NCBI RefSeq assembly: GCF_037975245.1
Contig: NC_092565.1
Location: forward strand, 23,393,499-23,457,498
DNA: 64,000 nucleotides
Origin: Apostichopus japonicus
Lineage: Eukaryota > Echinodermata > Holothuroidea > Aspidochirotida > Stichopodidae
Direction: 5' to 3'
Positions within the stretch are counted from its first letter, which is position 1, and each line of letters starts with the position of its first letter. A program made the position numbers and the translations under genes. Positions 27,811 to 63,676 of the stretch are shown here, one piece after another. Under the pieces are notes generated by a model. It saw nothing but the letters and a program-made list of their open reading frames with translations, was not told where the DNA came from and made no database searches.

Positions 27811-28880
27811 CAATCCATACTGTTTGTCAGTTGCCAAACTGTAATGCATAGTAAATATGTTATTTGAGGCCATGAAATATTCCTATCAATCAATACTGTT
27901 TGTCAGTTGCCAAACTGTAATGCATAGTAAATATGTTATTTGAGGCCATGTAATATTCCTATCGATCAATACTGTTTGTCAGTTGCCTAACTGTAATGCA
28001 TAGTAAATATGTTATTTCAGGCCATGTAATATTCCTATCGATCAATACTGTTTGTCAGTTGCCTAACTGTAATGCATAGTAAATATGTTATTTCAGGCCA
28101 TGAAATATTCCTATCGATCAATACTGTTTGTCAGTTGCCAAACTGTAATGCATAGTAAATATGTTATTTCAGGCCATGAAATATTCCTATCAATCAATAC
28201 TGTTTGTCAGTTGCCATACTGTAATGCATAGTAAATATGTTATTTGAGGCCATGAAATATTCCTATCGATCAATACTGTTTGTCAGTTGCCAAACTGTAA
28301 TGCATAGTAAATATGTTATTTGAGGCCATGAAATATTCCTATCGATCAATACTGTTTGTCAGTTGCCATACTGTAATGCATAGTAAATATGTTATTTGAG
28401 GCCATGAAATATTCCTATCAATCAATACTGTTTGTCAGTTGCCAAACTGTAATGCATAGTAAATATGTTATTTGAGGCCATGAAATATTCCTATCAATCA
28501 ATACTGTTTGTCAGTTGCCATACTGTAATGCATAGTAAATATGTTATTTGCGGCCATGTAATATTCCTATCAATCAATACTGTTTGTCGGTTGCCAAACT
28601 GTAATGCATAGTAAATATGTTATTTGAGGCCATGAAATATTCCTATCAATCAATACTGTTTGTCAGTTGCCATACTGTTATGCATAGTAAATATGTTATT
28701 TGCGGCCATGTAATATTCCTATCAATCAATACTGTTTGTCGGTTGCCAAACTGTAATGCATAGTAAATATGTTATTTGAGGCCATGAAATATTCCTATCA
28801 ATCAATACTGTTTGTCAGTTGCCATACTGTTATGCATAGTAAATACGTTATTTGCGGCCATGAAATATTCCGGTCGAGTT
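27811..28880. repeat. 76-bp satellite array, about 14 units, with a dimeric sub-pattern
   Basis: The word ATACTGTTTGTC recurs at an exact 76-bp spacing (for example 27893, 27969, and so on to 28805). Each unit continues through CTGTAATGCATAGTAAATA and a GGCCATG(A/T)AATATTCCTAT block. The units carry diagnostic variants: CCAAACTG or CCATACTG, TTGAGG or TTGCGG, GTCAG or GTCGG, and CGATCA or CAATCA. From about 28350 the variants alternate unit by unit, giving a 152-bp higher-order repeat. The array ends in a degraded unit after 28870. There are no unique spacers and no ORF. Confidence 0.92.
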
Positions 28881-56200: not shown

Positions 56201-59200
56201 TAGTTCCTTCAAACTTCATAAATGAAGAATTCTCAGTTTTCACAGAGAGAAATACAAGAATATTTATATATTGTGCATGTTTATTGTTGTTTTGTTTTTA
56301 CAACGATATCTTCTGACTGCCATTATGTTTGATTTTTGCATTTGTTACAACACCCCTCTCCCATTCCTCTGGAGGACAGAAGAATGTTATTTGTCATGTT
56401 TATGTAATTGTATACTAATGTTATTTTATTGTACTCTGCATCAATTGCAGCCCAGATGAAGGAGTTACCTGGCATCAAGTCACTGATTATAATTCTGCTG
56501 AGATCATTCTCTTAACAACAAGTGCTGATGGTCAGATGGTGATACTGAATAAGAACCAAGAGGTATGTTTAACTCCAAGACAAAATCCATGAACATCTTC
56601 AAGCTTCAAGAGTTATTGGCCATAGGTTATATCCCCCTCACCCCCCCTTTTCTCCTATCTGTGGGCATGCTCCTCTTGACTTTGCTAAACATGAGTACTT
56701 AACCAGGTATTGAATAGAAAAAAAAGTTGTTTAAAGAAGTAATTTTAAATACCTTGGGAAAATTTGCCCTATGACTACAAAACTTGCACAGCAGACCTAA
56801 ACCAACCAGTCTTAGAATGGAAGATGGTACAATATTTTCTTCAACTGGTACAAAGGATAATTAAAACTTGATTAGTAGTTTTTTAGGAGAAAATAAATAA
56901 TTTCTAGCTTTCGTAGCCGATAGGAATCCACTTGACTGAGTGAATCTAATGGAATACAATTGTGCAATGTTTAGTATGATTCTTTTCTGAAAACAAATTG
57001 ATATCATAATTTTTGATACAAATATACCCATACTATATTTCTGACAGATTTTGTACGGTTCCTATGGGTCATCTATCTCTCTGACGAAACTACGACCATC
57101 ATCTGGGTGGCAGCTCAATGAAGTCCTCACTATGTCATCAGAAGTCAACCAAATGGTCAAAACTATTTCAGTTTATTTTGATAGTTACTTTGCTTTACGA
57201 GAGGTATGGATGGTTCCTTTTTGCTTTCTAATAGCAGTTTTGTAATGTGTTGGGTGATCATTTTAGCGTTGAGATTCGTGTTTGCATATAAGAAAGATGT
57301 TTGGAATACATTACCTTTGTAAAGAAACAAAGAAGGTGTTTGGAATACCTTTCCTTTCTAAAGAATAAAAAAGGTGTTTGGAATAACTTTCCTTTGTAAA
57401 GAAATTTATAAAGGTGTTTGGCATAACTTTCCTTTGTAAAGAAACAAAGAAGGTGCTTGGATTAACGTTCCTTTGTAAATAAGGGAAAAAAAGGTGTGTA
57501 GAAAACCTCTCCTTTGTAAACATTTAAAGAATGGTGTTTGGAATTCCTTTCTTTTGTAAACTTTAGAAACAAAGAAAGGTGTTTGGAATTCCTTTCCTTT
57601 GTCAAGAATCAAGAACATTAGTTTTCATCTTCAATCCAGGTTATTGTCAGTGAGGACGAATCAAACGGTCAGCTATCCCTCTCATCCCGAATCATACCAG
57701 CTGTTAGGATTACACAGTTAGAGAAAGAATCTGCTCCTCTGAGAGCAGGAACTATGACAACAGACAAGGAAGAGCCTCCATCTTGTCCATTCAGTAGGCT
57801 CTTGGTCTCCACCGAACTCAGCTCAGTTGAGAGGCAGGAGCACTACAAACTCCGTCCTCCCAGTCTGACGAGGAGCAAACTCCACGATGAGAATTCACTG
57901 CTCATCTATCAAGGACTTCTCCATCTGATCCTGGACTTGAGGCAGAAAGACAGGAGGATGGTAAGTCTTGAAATAAATCAATGATTAAAAGGTTGTCAAC
58001 ATTACCTCAACATTTTCATGAATGCTGAAACATTGCTAAGAGTGTGCAAGACACCATTCCTATGACCTTTGACATGATAAATAATGTTATGTGAAATTAG
58101 ACAATTTCTTTTTAAATGGCCATAAGAGGATGTGACTCTTTTGACAATTCACAACTATTTGACTGTCTACCATAATGGGAAGGAGAGATGCCTGGTGGAG
58201 GGGGTGGGGCGGGAGAGCTCAATACTGATTACCTTTAAGCAATAGTTTGGGTTTCTTGTTTAGAAAATTATTAATATTATATATGCAAAACAATTTAAAA
58301 CATATATACTTATTATTTAAAATGATGTTACAATATTTCCTACAGAATTCCATACCTACCTGATGCAATGTTGAATGCTAACACTAAGATAAAATTTTCT
58401 TCTCACTCAGAGGCGGGGGGGATGCAAATAGGCGAAAATTGAGCCACCACATTTATTACAAGTTTTGTCCGAGTTCTTATAATTCAGCTATTTTCTAGGC
58501 ATATAGGTACATCTGCTGTTAAAATAGACTATATTAAGGGTATGGCAAATAATGGATTTATCAAAGCTCCTTAAATCCCACATTTCAAACGAGGCAAGTC
58601 AAATAGTAAACCTTTAGAAAAACTTTTATAAAAATGTATTCCAGATTGAAAAATGGTGTCCTCTCGTTACAAACAGCTGAATGTAATTTTTGTATTGGTG
58701 GTATAGAGGTACCTAGAGTCATCCAATTGAATGTATGTACCCTTTGCTTTGTCACATGCACCAGTGCCTTTGGTACACACAATTTGTTAACATTTATCTG
58801 TAAATTTCATATGTTATTTGCTAATTTTCTTTTTCTTCTTTGGCAGGCCTATGCTGGTGACCTACATAACCCTTTGGAACAATTCTTGAATCTAAGAAAG
58901 CCTCTGGAGGCCTACCATGACTACATGTATAGAAACCGTCTGTTACCAATTGGTATTCATATTACCTTACAGCCATTTAGAAATGGTGGAATACAGGTAA
59001 TTGTCTTGCATAGAAACCGTCTGTTACCAATTGGTATTCATATTACCTTACACCCATTGAGATATGGTGGAATACAGGTAATTGCCTTGCACAGAAACCG
59101 TCTGAAACCACACAGTATTCATAATACCTTACAGCCATATAGAAATTGTGGAATACAGGTAATTGTCTTGTTTAGAAACCGTCTGTTACCAATTGGTATT

Positions 59201-62200
59201 CATATTACCTTACACCCATTGAGATATGGTGGAATACAGGTAATTGTCTTGCACAGAAACCGTCTGAAACCACACAGTATTCATATTACCTTACAGCCAT
59301 TTAGAACTGGTGGAATACAGGTAATTGTCTTGTTTAAAAACCGTCTGCTACCACACGGTATTCATATTACCTTACAGCCATATAGAAATGGTGGAATACA
59401 GGTAATTGTCCTGCATAGAAACCATCTGTTACCAATTGGTATTCATGTTACCTTAAAGCCATTTAGAAATGGTGGAATACAGGTAATTGTCTTGCATAGA
59501 AACCGTCTGTTACCACATGGTATTCATAATACCTTACAGCCATTAAGAAATGGTGGAATACAGGTAATTGCAAGACAATCAAATACATTTCTGAAATCGG
59601 TGTTTAATGAATTGTTACCAATTTTATTTTAGCTAATGGGACACACCTTTGCAACATACACTAAATTTATTTGACCATTGGGGAGGGGGGGGGTGGTGGG
59701 TAGTGTTCTTTATCTTTGACGTGTTTAAAGGATTCAATTCGTTTCTGATAAAGATCCTGCTAGGATGAAAACCGTGAGGCCATGGAACTCTTTTTAACCT
59801 ACCTAAAGATATGTTTTATTTCCAGAAGAAAAGAAGTTTGATAACTGTTTGTTTCTCGCTCTGAAATCTTTGCAGGTGAGGGAAGGCAGAGTATTTTCAC
59901 TTCCTGCTGAAGTGTTCTTGGATAAAGGGGACTCTTACCAGTTCAAGATAGAGCTGAGAGGTTGGTCACATGAAGAGCGAGAGGCCGGTAAGTGAAGGAC
60001 GCAATGACATGTCCATCGTTGTTGTAGTGTCCACTTGTCGAACAACACTTTGGATTTTTTGAATTTGTTAATATTCTTGTCTTTATCTTGTTAGTTGTGC
60101 CATGATTTAATAAATCTTCAGTTTTTGAGGATTATTAGAAAACTGAGAAAAGAGAAAAAATCCTTCATCAATTATTGATTATTAGGTAGTCAAGTATACC
60201 TCTATCATATACAGTAACGATTGTAGTAAAACAAGGCATTGCGGCCGGGGATTTGATTCTGGTAAATTTTGGATACCGTTCTATAATTTACAATTTTCAT
60301 CCTCAGGTTTATACCATCACCAGAATCTGGATCTCATCCAAATGATGGTCGAAGTATCAGATTTGAACTTGCTACAAGTCAATTTATTTCGTCGAGTAGA
60401 TTATCTTAGAGACACAGTTGAATACACTGTAAGTATGCTTCCATACGTAGTATTTAAGCCATTTGTTATATCGTATGTTAGTGTTCTTGCGTTAATTACC
60501 ACACTTAAAGTCTCCTAACATGGTACCACACTCAAGAGCGAGAAATATAAACTTCCATAAATAATTTAAAACTCAAAATAAGAGCATTTAACCTCCTAAG
60601 ATGATCATTTTTGGTCTACTGTTAGGTATTATGTCACATTGGCTCTCTATATGTTTTGTTTGGTGATTTCTACCAGAGATGGTGTATTCTTTCATTCTTA
60701 AAGGGGATGGCTACCCTGGGAGTATGTCATGCAGTAATATATGTGTTAAGTAATAATTTAAGTAGTGCTTGCCCTCTCATAATTTACAGAATTTAACCTT
60801 TCATCTCAAAATAGGTTACTTTGGAGGACTTAGCTAGCATTGGTCATAAAGCACCTCCAGGGATGCTGCTACAGGTGTCATCTTTTACACTTGAAGCCTG
60901 GAATTCTGCCCTCAGTTGTTTTGAAGAAACTAATGACAAGACAGAGACTAAGGTAACCAAAAAGAAGGTGGTGTTCAGGGGGGGCGGGTGGAACCTGGGG
61001 ACACAGATTGCTGAACCCTGCAATTTCATGTCGGGCATAGGACCATCTGTGTGTGCCTGAAGTTACTATTAGGTGCAAAAAATAATATGAAGTGTAGTAC
61101 ATATTTTTGAGAGCTGTGCTTCAGAAACATAAATTTGATACTTGTAAATTCAGGGAAAACTCTAGTTTTTTGTTTTAAAAAAAGTTTACTGTCCCCTATC
61201 ATGAGTAACTGCTTTTTAGTTTCAATGGCACATGACTTAAATGTTTATTATCTTGTGCACAGATTCTGGCAATTTTGTGGAATTTCTGTCACAAGTACGC
61301 TCTAATTCTTTTCCCCCTCATTCCACCAGGGTCTCTTAGGCATGACTGTACTCCACGGCTGTCCCCCTGGTATGGTTCTACAGTATGACATTAATGCCAC
61401 TATACTCTACAATGGTATCAGCAGTGTATATGAATGTCCTCAGGTGGATCCAAATCTCCCCTGTGTGTATTTCAAACATGGTAAGGATTGTCTTTGTTAC
61501 TTCATTAATACCAGGCTATTCATTGGTTCTGTTTGCAGCTAGCCATTGTCTTACTGCTTCAGTGCGATCCATACCTCGGTATTAAGCTTCCTTTTTGTGT
61601 TTTATTGAGAGGGTCTTTGGGACTCCACGGTGATTTAATTAAATTTTTTAACGTCAATAAAGACGGAGAAGTATAAACTCTAAACTCTAAATCCTAAATT
61701 TTTGTTTTTTCCATAAGACGATCAGTATGCATGAAAGCAAACAGTTTTCAGCAACTCTTGAGAAATTTTGTATCCCCCACCTCCACCTCCCCCACCCCTG
61801 ACAAAAGAAAACAAACCAATCATATTATGAAGTTGTAGCTGTACAATCTAAAGTATTAAAGTTGGCATATATAGACATTAGTTATCAGTTTCCTATGGTC
61901 TTCTGGTTTGCTCAATGATTCTTAAGTCTTCCATCTACATCGCTAAATTTTAATTTAAGTGTTCCATTTACCTACGACAGCAGATCAATCACTCCTTAAA
62001 GGATGAGCGGGGGTAGGGAAAGGGAAGTGAGTTTGTTGTTGTTGTTTTCAAACATGTTCTTGTTTTTCTCCAGAATTTCGCCCCCTCTTTAAAGTACTCG
62101 ACGTGACCACTAGGAAGTCAAAGCCATTTACAGGACGGTATACCTTAAAAGTCATCGGTGGCCAAGGGACCCAGGAAGATGAGATGAGTTACTTCACTCA

Positions 62201-63676
62201 AGAAGAGATATCCAAGTATAACTGGCTGGATAGGTAAATAAGTAAATAATTTTCGATAATATTAAATATTTTCAACAAAATTTGGTCACAATTAGGATTA
62301 AGTACAGCTTGTGGGTTTGACACCTTAAAGTTGACAGAAATTGTCACAGAAAGACATCTGTGGTCTTTAGAGCTACTCTAGCACAGTTATGAAGAATGGC
62401 CATTTCATATAGCAGCCTTAACTCCCCACTTAATGTACAGCATTTTACTTATTAGCTTCCTATCAATTTTAAGTACCTATCCATGAGGTGATTACACATG
62501 AAGATCAGTTTTCATAGAGCAGGCTCATCTCATAATTCAGACAGACATGTTCACAATTGTCCCCTTTCCTGATCATTGGAAACAACTAATTAATATACCC
62601 CCAAATGTACAAGAGTGAACCCACCCACCCCACCATCTTTTTTCAAATACTGAGGTTAATCTTCTGATTTTCTATATATACTACAGATAAAAAACATGCA
62701 TAGGTCAAATTTATTACGTAATGATTATTAAAGTCAGGGAAAGCATTTGGACTACTTTTTGACTGCAGATATTTTACCTTTTGGATATTTAATCATTCAC
62801 CCCTACGAAAATAAGCTGACTGTAGATTAAAAAGTTGGCACAGTCTGCACATTGCAGCAGTTCCCTGAAATGCTTTTATGTCTGATCGTATCTCTATATA
62901 GGCAGTGAACTGCTACAGATGACGTTTTCAAAGTTAGTAAATGGAAGTCTTACAGATGTTACTATAAATGATTACAAATTGAGGATATTTATTGTTTTAT
63001 AATTCCAGCAATACTCTCGTTTGGGTGCCTCTCACAGCATCCAAAGAGGCCACAGCTCACGTCTTCAACAGGAAGAATAATGGACTTGTCTGGAGATGCA
63101 AACAGTTTTCTCCCTGTTCTGATCAGCCGTTAAATTTTCCGTGGATGCCTGAATATACATTCCTTGTTGAAGTATCGAACAAGTAATTATTTCGTTTTTC
63201 TTGCTGTTGTAATTAACACAATAGCAGCCATGAAGTTTGAGAATGGCTGTAGGCAAAACATACCTATTGGGGATATCGATATGTGGAAGTTTAAAAAAAA
63301 ATTGTAAATTTGAGCAATTTATTTCTGTATTGTTTACATTCTAACAATACAAAATATTTTCTATGGATTAATTTTTTTCTGTTTTTTTTTTCATTTTAGA
63401 GATGTTGCAAGTTCTTCCTCGTATTGCGAGTACACAGTGCAGTTTATGGTGAAAGTTCACGGTTTACCAATTAGCTCTCAGAGATCAGTGAGAATTGTTG
63501 CTGTAAGTGTGACATAAAGATTTATCTGAGTTCATAAGCATCAAAATCATATTTTGCCATATGTCTAACTTATCGATATGATATTATTGAGTTTTCGTCA
63601 TTTATGAAGCATTCATCCTTTTTGTTTTCAGTGTGTCGTTTTGATGGCCATGTGGCAAACGAATAGAGCGGTTTAA
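50214..63676 (+). CDS. CatSper channel auxiliary subunit, gamma-like, 20 coding exons
   Basis: Likely a single-pass auxiliary subunit of the sperm flagellar calcium channel. Exons: 50214-50447, 50875-51194, 51595-51823, 52742-53024, 53834-53911, 54234-54386 (less certain), 55120-55185, 55992-56097, 56451-56562, 57048-57203, 57640-57960, 58847-58996 (or up to 59563), 59876-59987, 60307-60428, 60815-60952, 61330-61480, 62074-62233, 63009-63182, 63400-63502, 63632-63676. All joins are GT-AG and phase-compatible: 1070 aa, or 1259 with all repeats. It has a signal peptide (residues ~8-26), then CSWEGQ, propeller-like segments (FLLSDERGLIF, VTWHQVTDY), and a C-terminal part with GCPPGMVLQYDI, FTGRYTLKVIGG and WMPEYTFLVEVSN, as in CatSper beta/gamma/delta/epsilon ectodomains. 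Gamma is favoured from the N-terminus. The last exon adds only 14 residues and gives no full transmembrane helix. Confidence 0.72.
52115..52430 (+). mobile_element. Two tandem copies of the U2-headed SINE in a CatSper intron
   Basis: Copy one (52115-52277) starts ATCGCGTCTTGGCC then GATCATGAGTAG, a diverged U2 5' end. Copy two (about 52278-52430) is 5'-truncated, starting AAGATCATGTGTAGGATC. Both carry the body of the 1024-1219 element (ACAGTCTTGATTCA, GGTTGAGAG) and the tail word TTCTTAA or TTCTTTAAAAAG. They lie in the intron between 51823 and 52742. Confidence 0.6.
57270..57615. repeat. ~40-bp minisatellite, about 8 diverged units, CatSper intron
   Basis: GGTGTTTGGAATxxCTTTCCTTTGTAAAGAA-like units repeat about eight times between exons 57048-57203 and 57640-57960. 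Length and sequence vary (38-46 bp). Units end in AAAG/AAAAG. No coding role. Confidence 0.8.
58931..59578 (+). repeat. 8 x 81-bp in-frame repeat duplicating an exon 3' end and its splice donor
   Basis: Units of exactly 81 bp (27 codons) start at 58931, inside the CatSper exon beginning at 58847. Each encodes a variant of RNRLLPIGIHITLQPFRN followed by GGIQ, then the donor sequence CAG|GTAATT at 58996, 59077, 59158 and so on to 59563. All eight stay open in one frame, despite amino acid changes such as LLPIG versus LKPHS. Units 2 and 4, and 3 and 5, are closest pairs, implying duplication of a two-unit block. The acceptor at 59876 is phase 0, so splicing from any unit keeps the frame. Confidence 0.88.

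Follow-up and report, generated by a model that had tools for sequence, protein, structure and literature searches.

Which splice donor would be taken where an exon ends in eight identical ones, all in the same reading frame, and would the sequence between them be read as protein? The question is raised by CATSPERG, the gene for the gamma subunit of the sperm channel CatSper, in the sea cucumber Apostichopus japonicus. The gene lies in the 64,000 nucleotides (nt) analysed here ("the window", C5:23393499-23457498), and the assembly searched alongside comprises 671.6 Mb in 35 contigs. One of its exons runs into a tandem array of eight units of 81 base pairs (bp) at 58916-59563, each closing in CAG/GTAATT (the slash marking the exon-intron boundary). 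We put at roughly 70% the probability that this is an exon-end minisatellite of ordinary expansion, with the first donor (58997) mainly used and the later donors giving minor in-frame isoforms. The array itself stands as observed and is unusually neat; what the first-pass annotation read into it, a ladder of donors in use as protein, is unproven. Its parts are these:

58916..58996, + strand: unit 1, exonic; its first 13-15 bases are exon-specific and absent from the other units
58997..59563, + strand: units 2-8, seven copies of 81 bp; each is open over 27 codons and closes in a donor
58994..59002, + strand: donor 1, CAG/GTAATT, the predicted main donor by its position (PMC6783452)
59561..59569, + strand: donor 8, the last identical donor

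The donors stand at 58997, 59078, 59159, 59240, 59321, 59402, 59483, and 59564, exactly 81 bp apart, and are alike from -6 to +7. Donor 1 agrees at 8/9 positions with CAGGTAAGT, which we take to be the donor consensus. All eight units carry a donor, the exon's own included, a feature that the array shares with donor-spanning variable number tandem repeats (VNTRs) of the type found in ABCA7. The exon's frame is open from 58847 across the array, with its first stop at 59630-59632, as the first-pass annotation had seen in reporting eight in-frame donors and no stop; over 58847-59566, stops fall in each of the other five frames. Depending on the donor, the exon would measure 150, 231, and so on to 717 nt, and the intron, whose acceptor ends at 59875, from 879 nt (donor 1) down to 312 nt (donor 8). 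The array is not a product of chance, given its Tandem Repeats Finder result (period 81, 7.9 copies, 86% matches, 0% indels, score 983). The unit had been called exact, which holds for its length, there being no indels, and fails for its sequence: units 2-8 vary in 22 of 81 columns and differ pairwise by 2-16 bases (up to 20 if the exon-specific bases at the start of unit 1 are included). Since units 2 and 4 differ at 2 bases and units 3 and 5 at 5, units 2-3 and units 4-5 probably go back to the duplication of a pair.

The earlier assignment to a CatSper subunit gene can be narrowed to CATSPERG by profile and sequence homology. Joined, exons 57640..57960, 58847..58996, and 59876..59987 align with mouse CatSper gamma 2 (9ubw_F, E 1.2e-9; 7eeb_F, E 1.3e-9), and PF22846 (CATSPERG_C) scores over its cut-off in two downstream exon matches, both of those reported lying inside the window (a genome search with 3 candidates scored, in which the lack of a further match is no proof that none exists). 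The exons read are as follows:

57640..57960, + strand: upstream CATSPERG exon, 321 nt, donor ATG/GTAAGT; acceptor and donor read, with homology to mouse CatSper gamma 2 when joined (E 1.2e-9)
58847..58996, + strand: CATSPERG exon of 150 nt in phase 0 whose 3' end is unit 1; alignment to mouse CatSper gamma 2
59876..59987, + strand: next CATSPERG exon, start of the predicted Ig-like domain; acceptor tttgcag/GTGAGG and donor read, with homology and a weak PF22851 match below cut-off
62052..62225, + strand: CATSPERG_C exon match, PF22846 over cut-off
63332..63517, + strand: CATSPERG_C exon match, PF22846 over cut-off; one TAA inside, probably an intron read through

The array thus sits directly before a predicted immunoglobulin-like (Ig-like) domain, in keeping with the ectodomain site first proposed for it; the PF22851 match, which opens at the ninth residue after the junction, is weak and sub-threshold (19.1 bits against a cut-off of 27). 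Spliced from donor 1, and so with no extra unit, the protein aligns with the mouse CatSper gamma chain and is 3 residues longer across the junction, a fit that counts for the use of donor 1.

We infer which donor is used and that the units are neutral, and for the former we turn to human splicing. In a study of alternative tandem 5' splice sites (PMC6783452), a designed human library in which both sites were the consensus used the first predominantly, and equal strength favoured the first. As there, equal donors compete here on one exon; the reporters, however, held two designed human sites in a variable region of 147-162 nt, whereas eight donors stand here in a natural array of 567 nt. By extension from these human data, donor 1 should dominate. 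The spliceosome would mainly take this first, exon-defining donor at 58997, and copies 2-8 would normally be removed as the opening part of the 879-nt intron. Occasional use of a later donor would lengthen the protein by n x 27 residues, as a minor isoform that stays in frame and would escape frame-shift decay, and skipping of the next exon may be another effect, by analogy with ABCA7.

In that human gene (PMC5954066), the intron 18 VNTR has a 25-bp unit whose first two bases are the canonical GT of the exon-18 donor. Besides canonical splicing, the donor one unit down is used, in a transcript at 2 ± 1% (on one reading of the paper's "respectively"); the frame is lost in this transcript, and transcripts of the kind rose substantially once translation was blocked. 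A longer VNTR brought more exon 19 skipping, not more retention of units. Both arrays are tandem and begin at an exon's donor, but that of ABCA7 is frame-shifting, intronic, variable in copy number, and disease-linked, whereas the present 81-bp unit is in-frame and exonic over ~66 nt.

The opposite choice, with the last donor constitutive and the seven extra units a fixed insertion of 189 residues, is very unlikely. The frame is open over the array, as such an insertion demands, and donor 8 lies nearest to the acceptor, proximity to which is a reported influence on donor choice. Earlier evidence on the proximity question is described as conflicting in PMC6783452, and the first-donor preference seen there speaks against constitutive use of donor 8. 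So do the 717-nt exon that it needs, the mouse CatSper gamma chain, which has no insertion at this site, and the units themselves, which are without purifying selection.

Nothing in the units points to purifying selection, and any signal of positive selection is not robust. The ratio of replacement to silent differences per site (pN/pS) is 1.60 when pooled over all 28 unit pairs, with unit 1 counted from base 16, and 1.51 for units 2-8. Neutral simulations (n = 6000; 34 events on one hand-set, approximate tree, with unit 8 as root) gave ~1,474/6000 histories without a stop, among which the 95% range of pN/pS was 0.41-1.79 and 6.1% reached at least the observed value. Counted by codon, 5 silent and 16 replacement events are compatible with neutrality (binomial P 0.59 and 0.45). 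The comparison of silent and replacement changes among units, proposed at the outset as a check, therefore falls in the neutral range, and the excess of silent changes that a coding repeat under purifying selection would display was looked for among the units and was absent. Retention of open units through amino acid drift had also been called surprising. With a minimum of 28 substitutions among units 2-8, the neutral chance of meeting no stop is 0.25-0.35 by formula for 28-33 events and 0.25 by simulation, so that 25-35% of neutral histories at ~28-34 substitutions stay open; as the unit also started with ~66 coding bases, the open frame is unsurprising.

An array on a splice donor is likewise to be expected in this genome. 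In a sample of 20 pieces of 10 kb, taken at set positions on four contigs, we counted 19 arrays (period at least 20, at least 3 copies), 12 of them at least 300 bp long. They cover 24,313 of the 200,000 bases in the sample (14,313 once a single all-satellite piece is removed), or 7-12%, and arrays landing on a donor are therefore expected. This bears also on the idea that the array or its copy number is an assembly artefact, or private to one individual. A single assembly and a single genome match would allow it, but similar arrays are common in the assembly and the 2-16 base differences between units are not expected of simple stutter, and we hold it to be exceedingly improbable.

Several points weigh against our preference for donor 1 and neutral drift. 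The splicing data are all human, and donor choice here is predicted from sequence and human analogy. Sequence distant from the sites can override the preference for the first donor (PMC6783452), and the 2% of ABCA7 understates later-donor use, because the one-unit transcript is depleted by decay (PMC5954066); decay of that kind would spare an in-frame product here. Within the array, variable columns of units 2-8 fall 9:9:4 by codon position, and the shortage at third positions (only 4/22; simulation P 0.007) would fit positive selection; neighbouring changes sometimes fall together, and the excess is gone in codon-level counting. None of the eight units departs from the 9-nt donor (P 0.048 by column shuffling, 0.022 by simulation), and an 18-nt run over it is likewise invariant (P 0.006 for this region, which was picked post hoc; P 0.040 for any such run). 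Indels are zero, against 1-9% in most sampled arrays of similar divergence (one array row in piece L024 also has 0, unlike most), and just 1/12 of the sampled arrays of at least 300 bp is open in any frame.

Donor invariance, the absence of indels, and the few third-position changes are weak signals, partly post hoc. Because of the invariant donor, the missing indels, and the rarity of open arrays, we keep in play—as unlikely—the reading in which every donor from 1 to 8 is used at a real rate, so that 0-7 extra modules of 27 residues would stand beside the Ig-like domain, perhaps under diversifying selection. Its case includes the open frame and a unit length of 3n, inter-unit differences rich in replacements, the Ig-like match opening at the ninth residue past the junction, and an AlphaFold2 single-sequence model of exon plus array with two strands per unit (mean predicted local distance difference test, pLDDT, 66; predicted TM-score, pTM, 0.66). 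We give the model little weight and set the array fold aside as a real structure: of 89 PDB matches at E <= 10, none reached E <= 0.001, and repeats are generally modelled unreliably from a single sequence. Against this reading stand also the codon-level changes, which are compatible with neutrality, and the exons of 231-717 nt that later donors imply. With no silent excess among units, equal human donors favouring the first (PMC6783452), and a minor later-donor product in ABCA7 (PMC5954066), the use of the ladder as protein, as the first-pass annotation had it, is unsupported.

Two other accounts of the units were discarded. Pfam zf-UBP_var matches the array over its cut-off (E 1.2e-5), but no single stretch passes, and we took the match for an artefact of summing over repeats. 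Mini-introns within units, running 57 nt from a donor to the TTACCTTACAG of the following unit, are unsupported: the motif occurs in exonic unit 1 too, and two units have no AG there (CAC).

How such a unit may have arisen is suggested by the far end of the array. A tandem duplication of the last 66-67 nt of the CATSPERG exon, its donor, and ~14 nt of intron would yield an 81-bp unit that chance could well leave divisible by three and open; the unit would then have grown to eight copies as an ordinary minisatellite. Downstream of donor 8, the direct match to the unit covers 7 bases only, but it reaches 14 if 13 bases (59567-59579) are read inverted, a match equalled in 3/2000 shuffled flanks with any allowed inversion. 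On the inverted reading, therefore, ~14 bp of intron were amplified; the original account of a duplicated exon end and donor stands, and its 15 bp of intron gives way to this figure. A 13-nt microinversion within a short ATTG...CAAT stem accounts for the match, either the terminal copy or the pre-amplification unit having flipped:

59567..59579, + strand: 13-nt inverted segment past the last donor; putative microinversion scar

The flip leaves an 11-nt element (59569-59579) whose complement recurs on the intron side of donors 1-7: in full (11 nt) at donors 1, 4, and 7, over 9 nt at donors 3 and 5, and with one mismatch at donors 2 and 6. RNA structure might on this basis steer donor choice, with the element pairing with donors 1-7 as a docking site does with selectors, or with hairpins in the units hiding donors. 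Taken pairwise, the element can pair with 7/7 upstream donors (duplexes of -10.5 to -15.7 kcal/mol, where 20-mers taken from the array average -4.7), and each unit can put its donor in a hairpin (-9.3 to -11.0 kcal/mol). In the folded array, however, it pairs with the intron side of its nearest partner, donor 7, alone (mean pair probability 0.88, against 0.0 for donors 1-6), with unit 8 looped out, which leaves nothing to select among the seven; nor would the hairpins single out a donor, being alike from unit to unit. As the folding of the complete array does not stand out from that of its shuffles (z -0.86; 3 of 20 at least as good) and one microinversion accounts for the complement, we give structural steering next to no credence. 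It is highly improbable, too, that array length, perhaps together with RNA pairing, sets the number of 27-residue, beta-hairpin-like modules in the CatSper gamma ectodomain, such that males differ in the length of the channel's ectodomain.

The favoured exon-end minisatellite differs from other systems of repeated coding modules chosen by splicing. In Dscam-type tandem duplicated exons, whole exons are repeated and spliced mutually exclusively; here, only the exon end and donor are, and use would therefore be cumulative, not exclusive. A 2007 paper by Zhuo et al. reportedly concerns, by its title, alternatively spliced introns from tandem arrays in genes. Among the CatSper literature matches listed (titles and abstract openings), none describes an array of this kind, a weak hint that it is unpublished. 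A minisatellite over a donor is already known from ABCA7; the in-frame form of one is new.

Other repeats were noted along the way. The CATSPERG intron preceding exon 57640-57960 holds a degenerate 39-bp x 8 array (57294-57612; 75% matches, 7% indels) that stops 27 bases short of that exon, and elsewhere in the window a 76-bp x 14 array (27811-28871, 96% matches) has no frame open over its full length. A possible relative on contig C8, found by protein match (best E 2.5e-4), was rejected: it is a minisatellite whose 57-bp unit differs in sequence, with 38 copies (L003:220-2343) and reading frames of >700 codons open on both strands. A protein match on C21 (E 5.7e-4) contains 8 internal stops, and weaker matches exist besides. 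A 45-bp x 56 array (L010:2-2518; C5:21000001 on) has one frame open end to end and is not known to be coding, and one entire 10-kb piece (L021; C11:9000001-9010000) is a 22-bp satellite. Apart from repeats, C29:14745-31219 carries COX1 in four consecutive pieces, with a second partial COX1 ~16 kb off, on a contig distinct from the COX1-bearing C35; concatenation or noise in a mitochondrial contig, or else a nuclear copy, may account for this. C35 itself opens with COX1, which reads under NCBI table 9 through 466 residues free of stops; AAA stands there at conserved asparagines, such as that of NHKDIG, in agreement with the echinoderm and flatworm code (the translation was filtered for this motif and is no independent test of other codes). 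What read as ND4L and then the start of COX2 come next, an order characteristic of echinoderms, and on these grounds the genome is echinoderm-like.

For CatSper gamma, the consequences depend on the donor. If later donors are used, a change in minisatellite copy number would translate directly into an in-frame change in the length of a sperm-channel protein, and if array length set the number of modules, so that males differed in it, this would be a splicing-driven, length-polymorphic sperm protein. Even without any use of later donors, eight near-identical natural donors at known spacing would provide a clean natural test of 5' site choice, with a human parallel in ABCA7.

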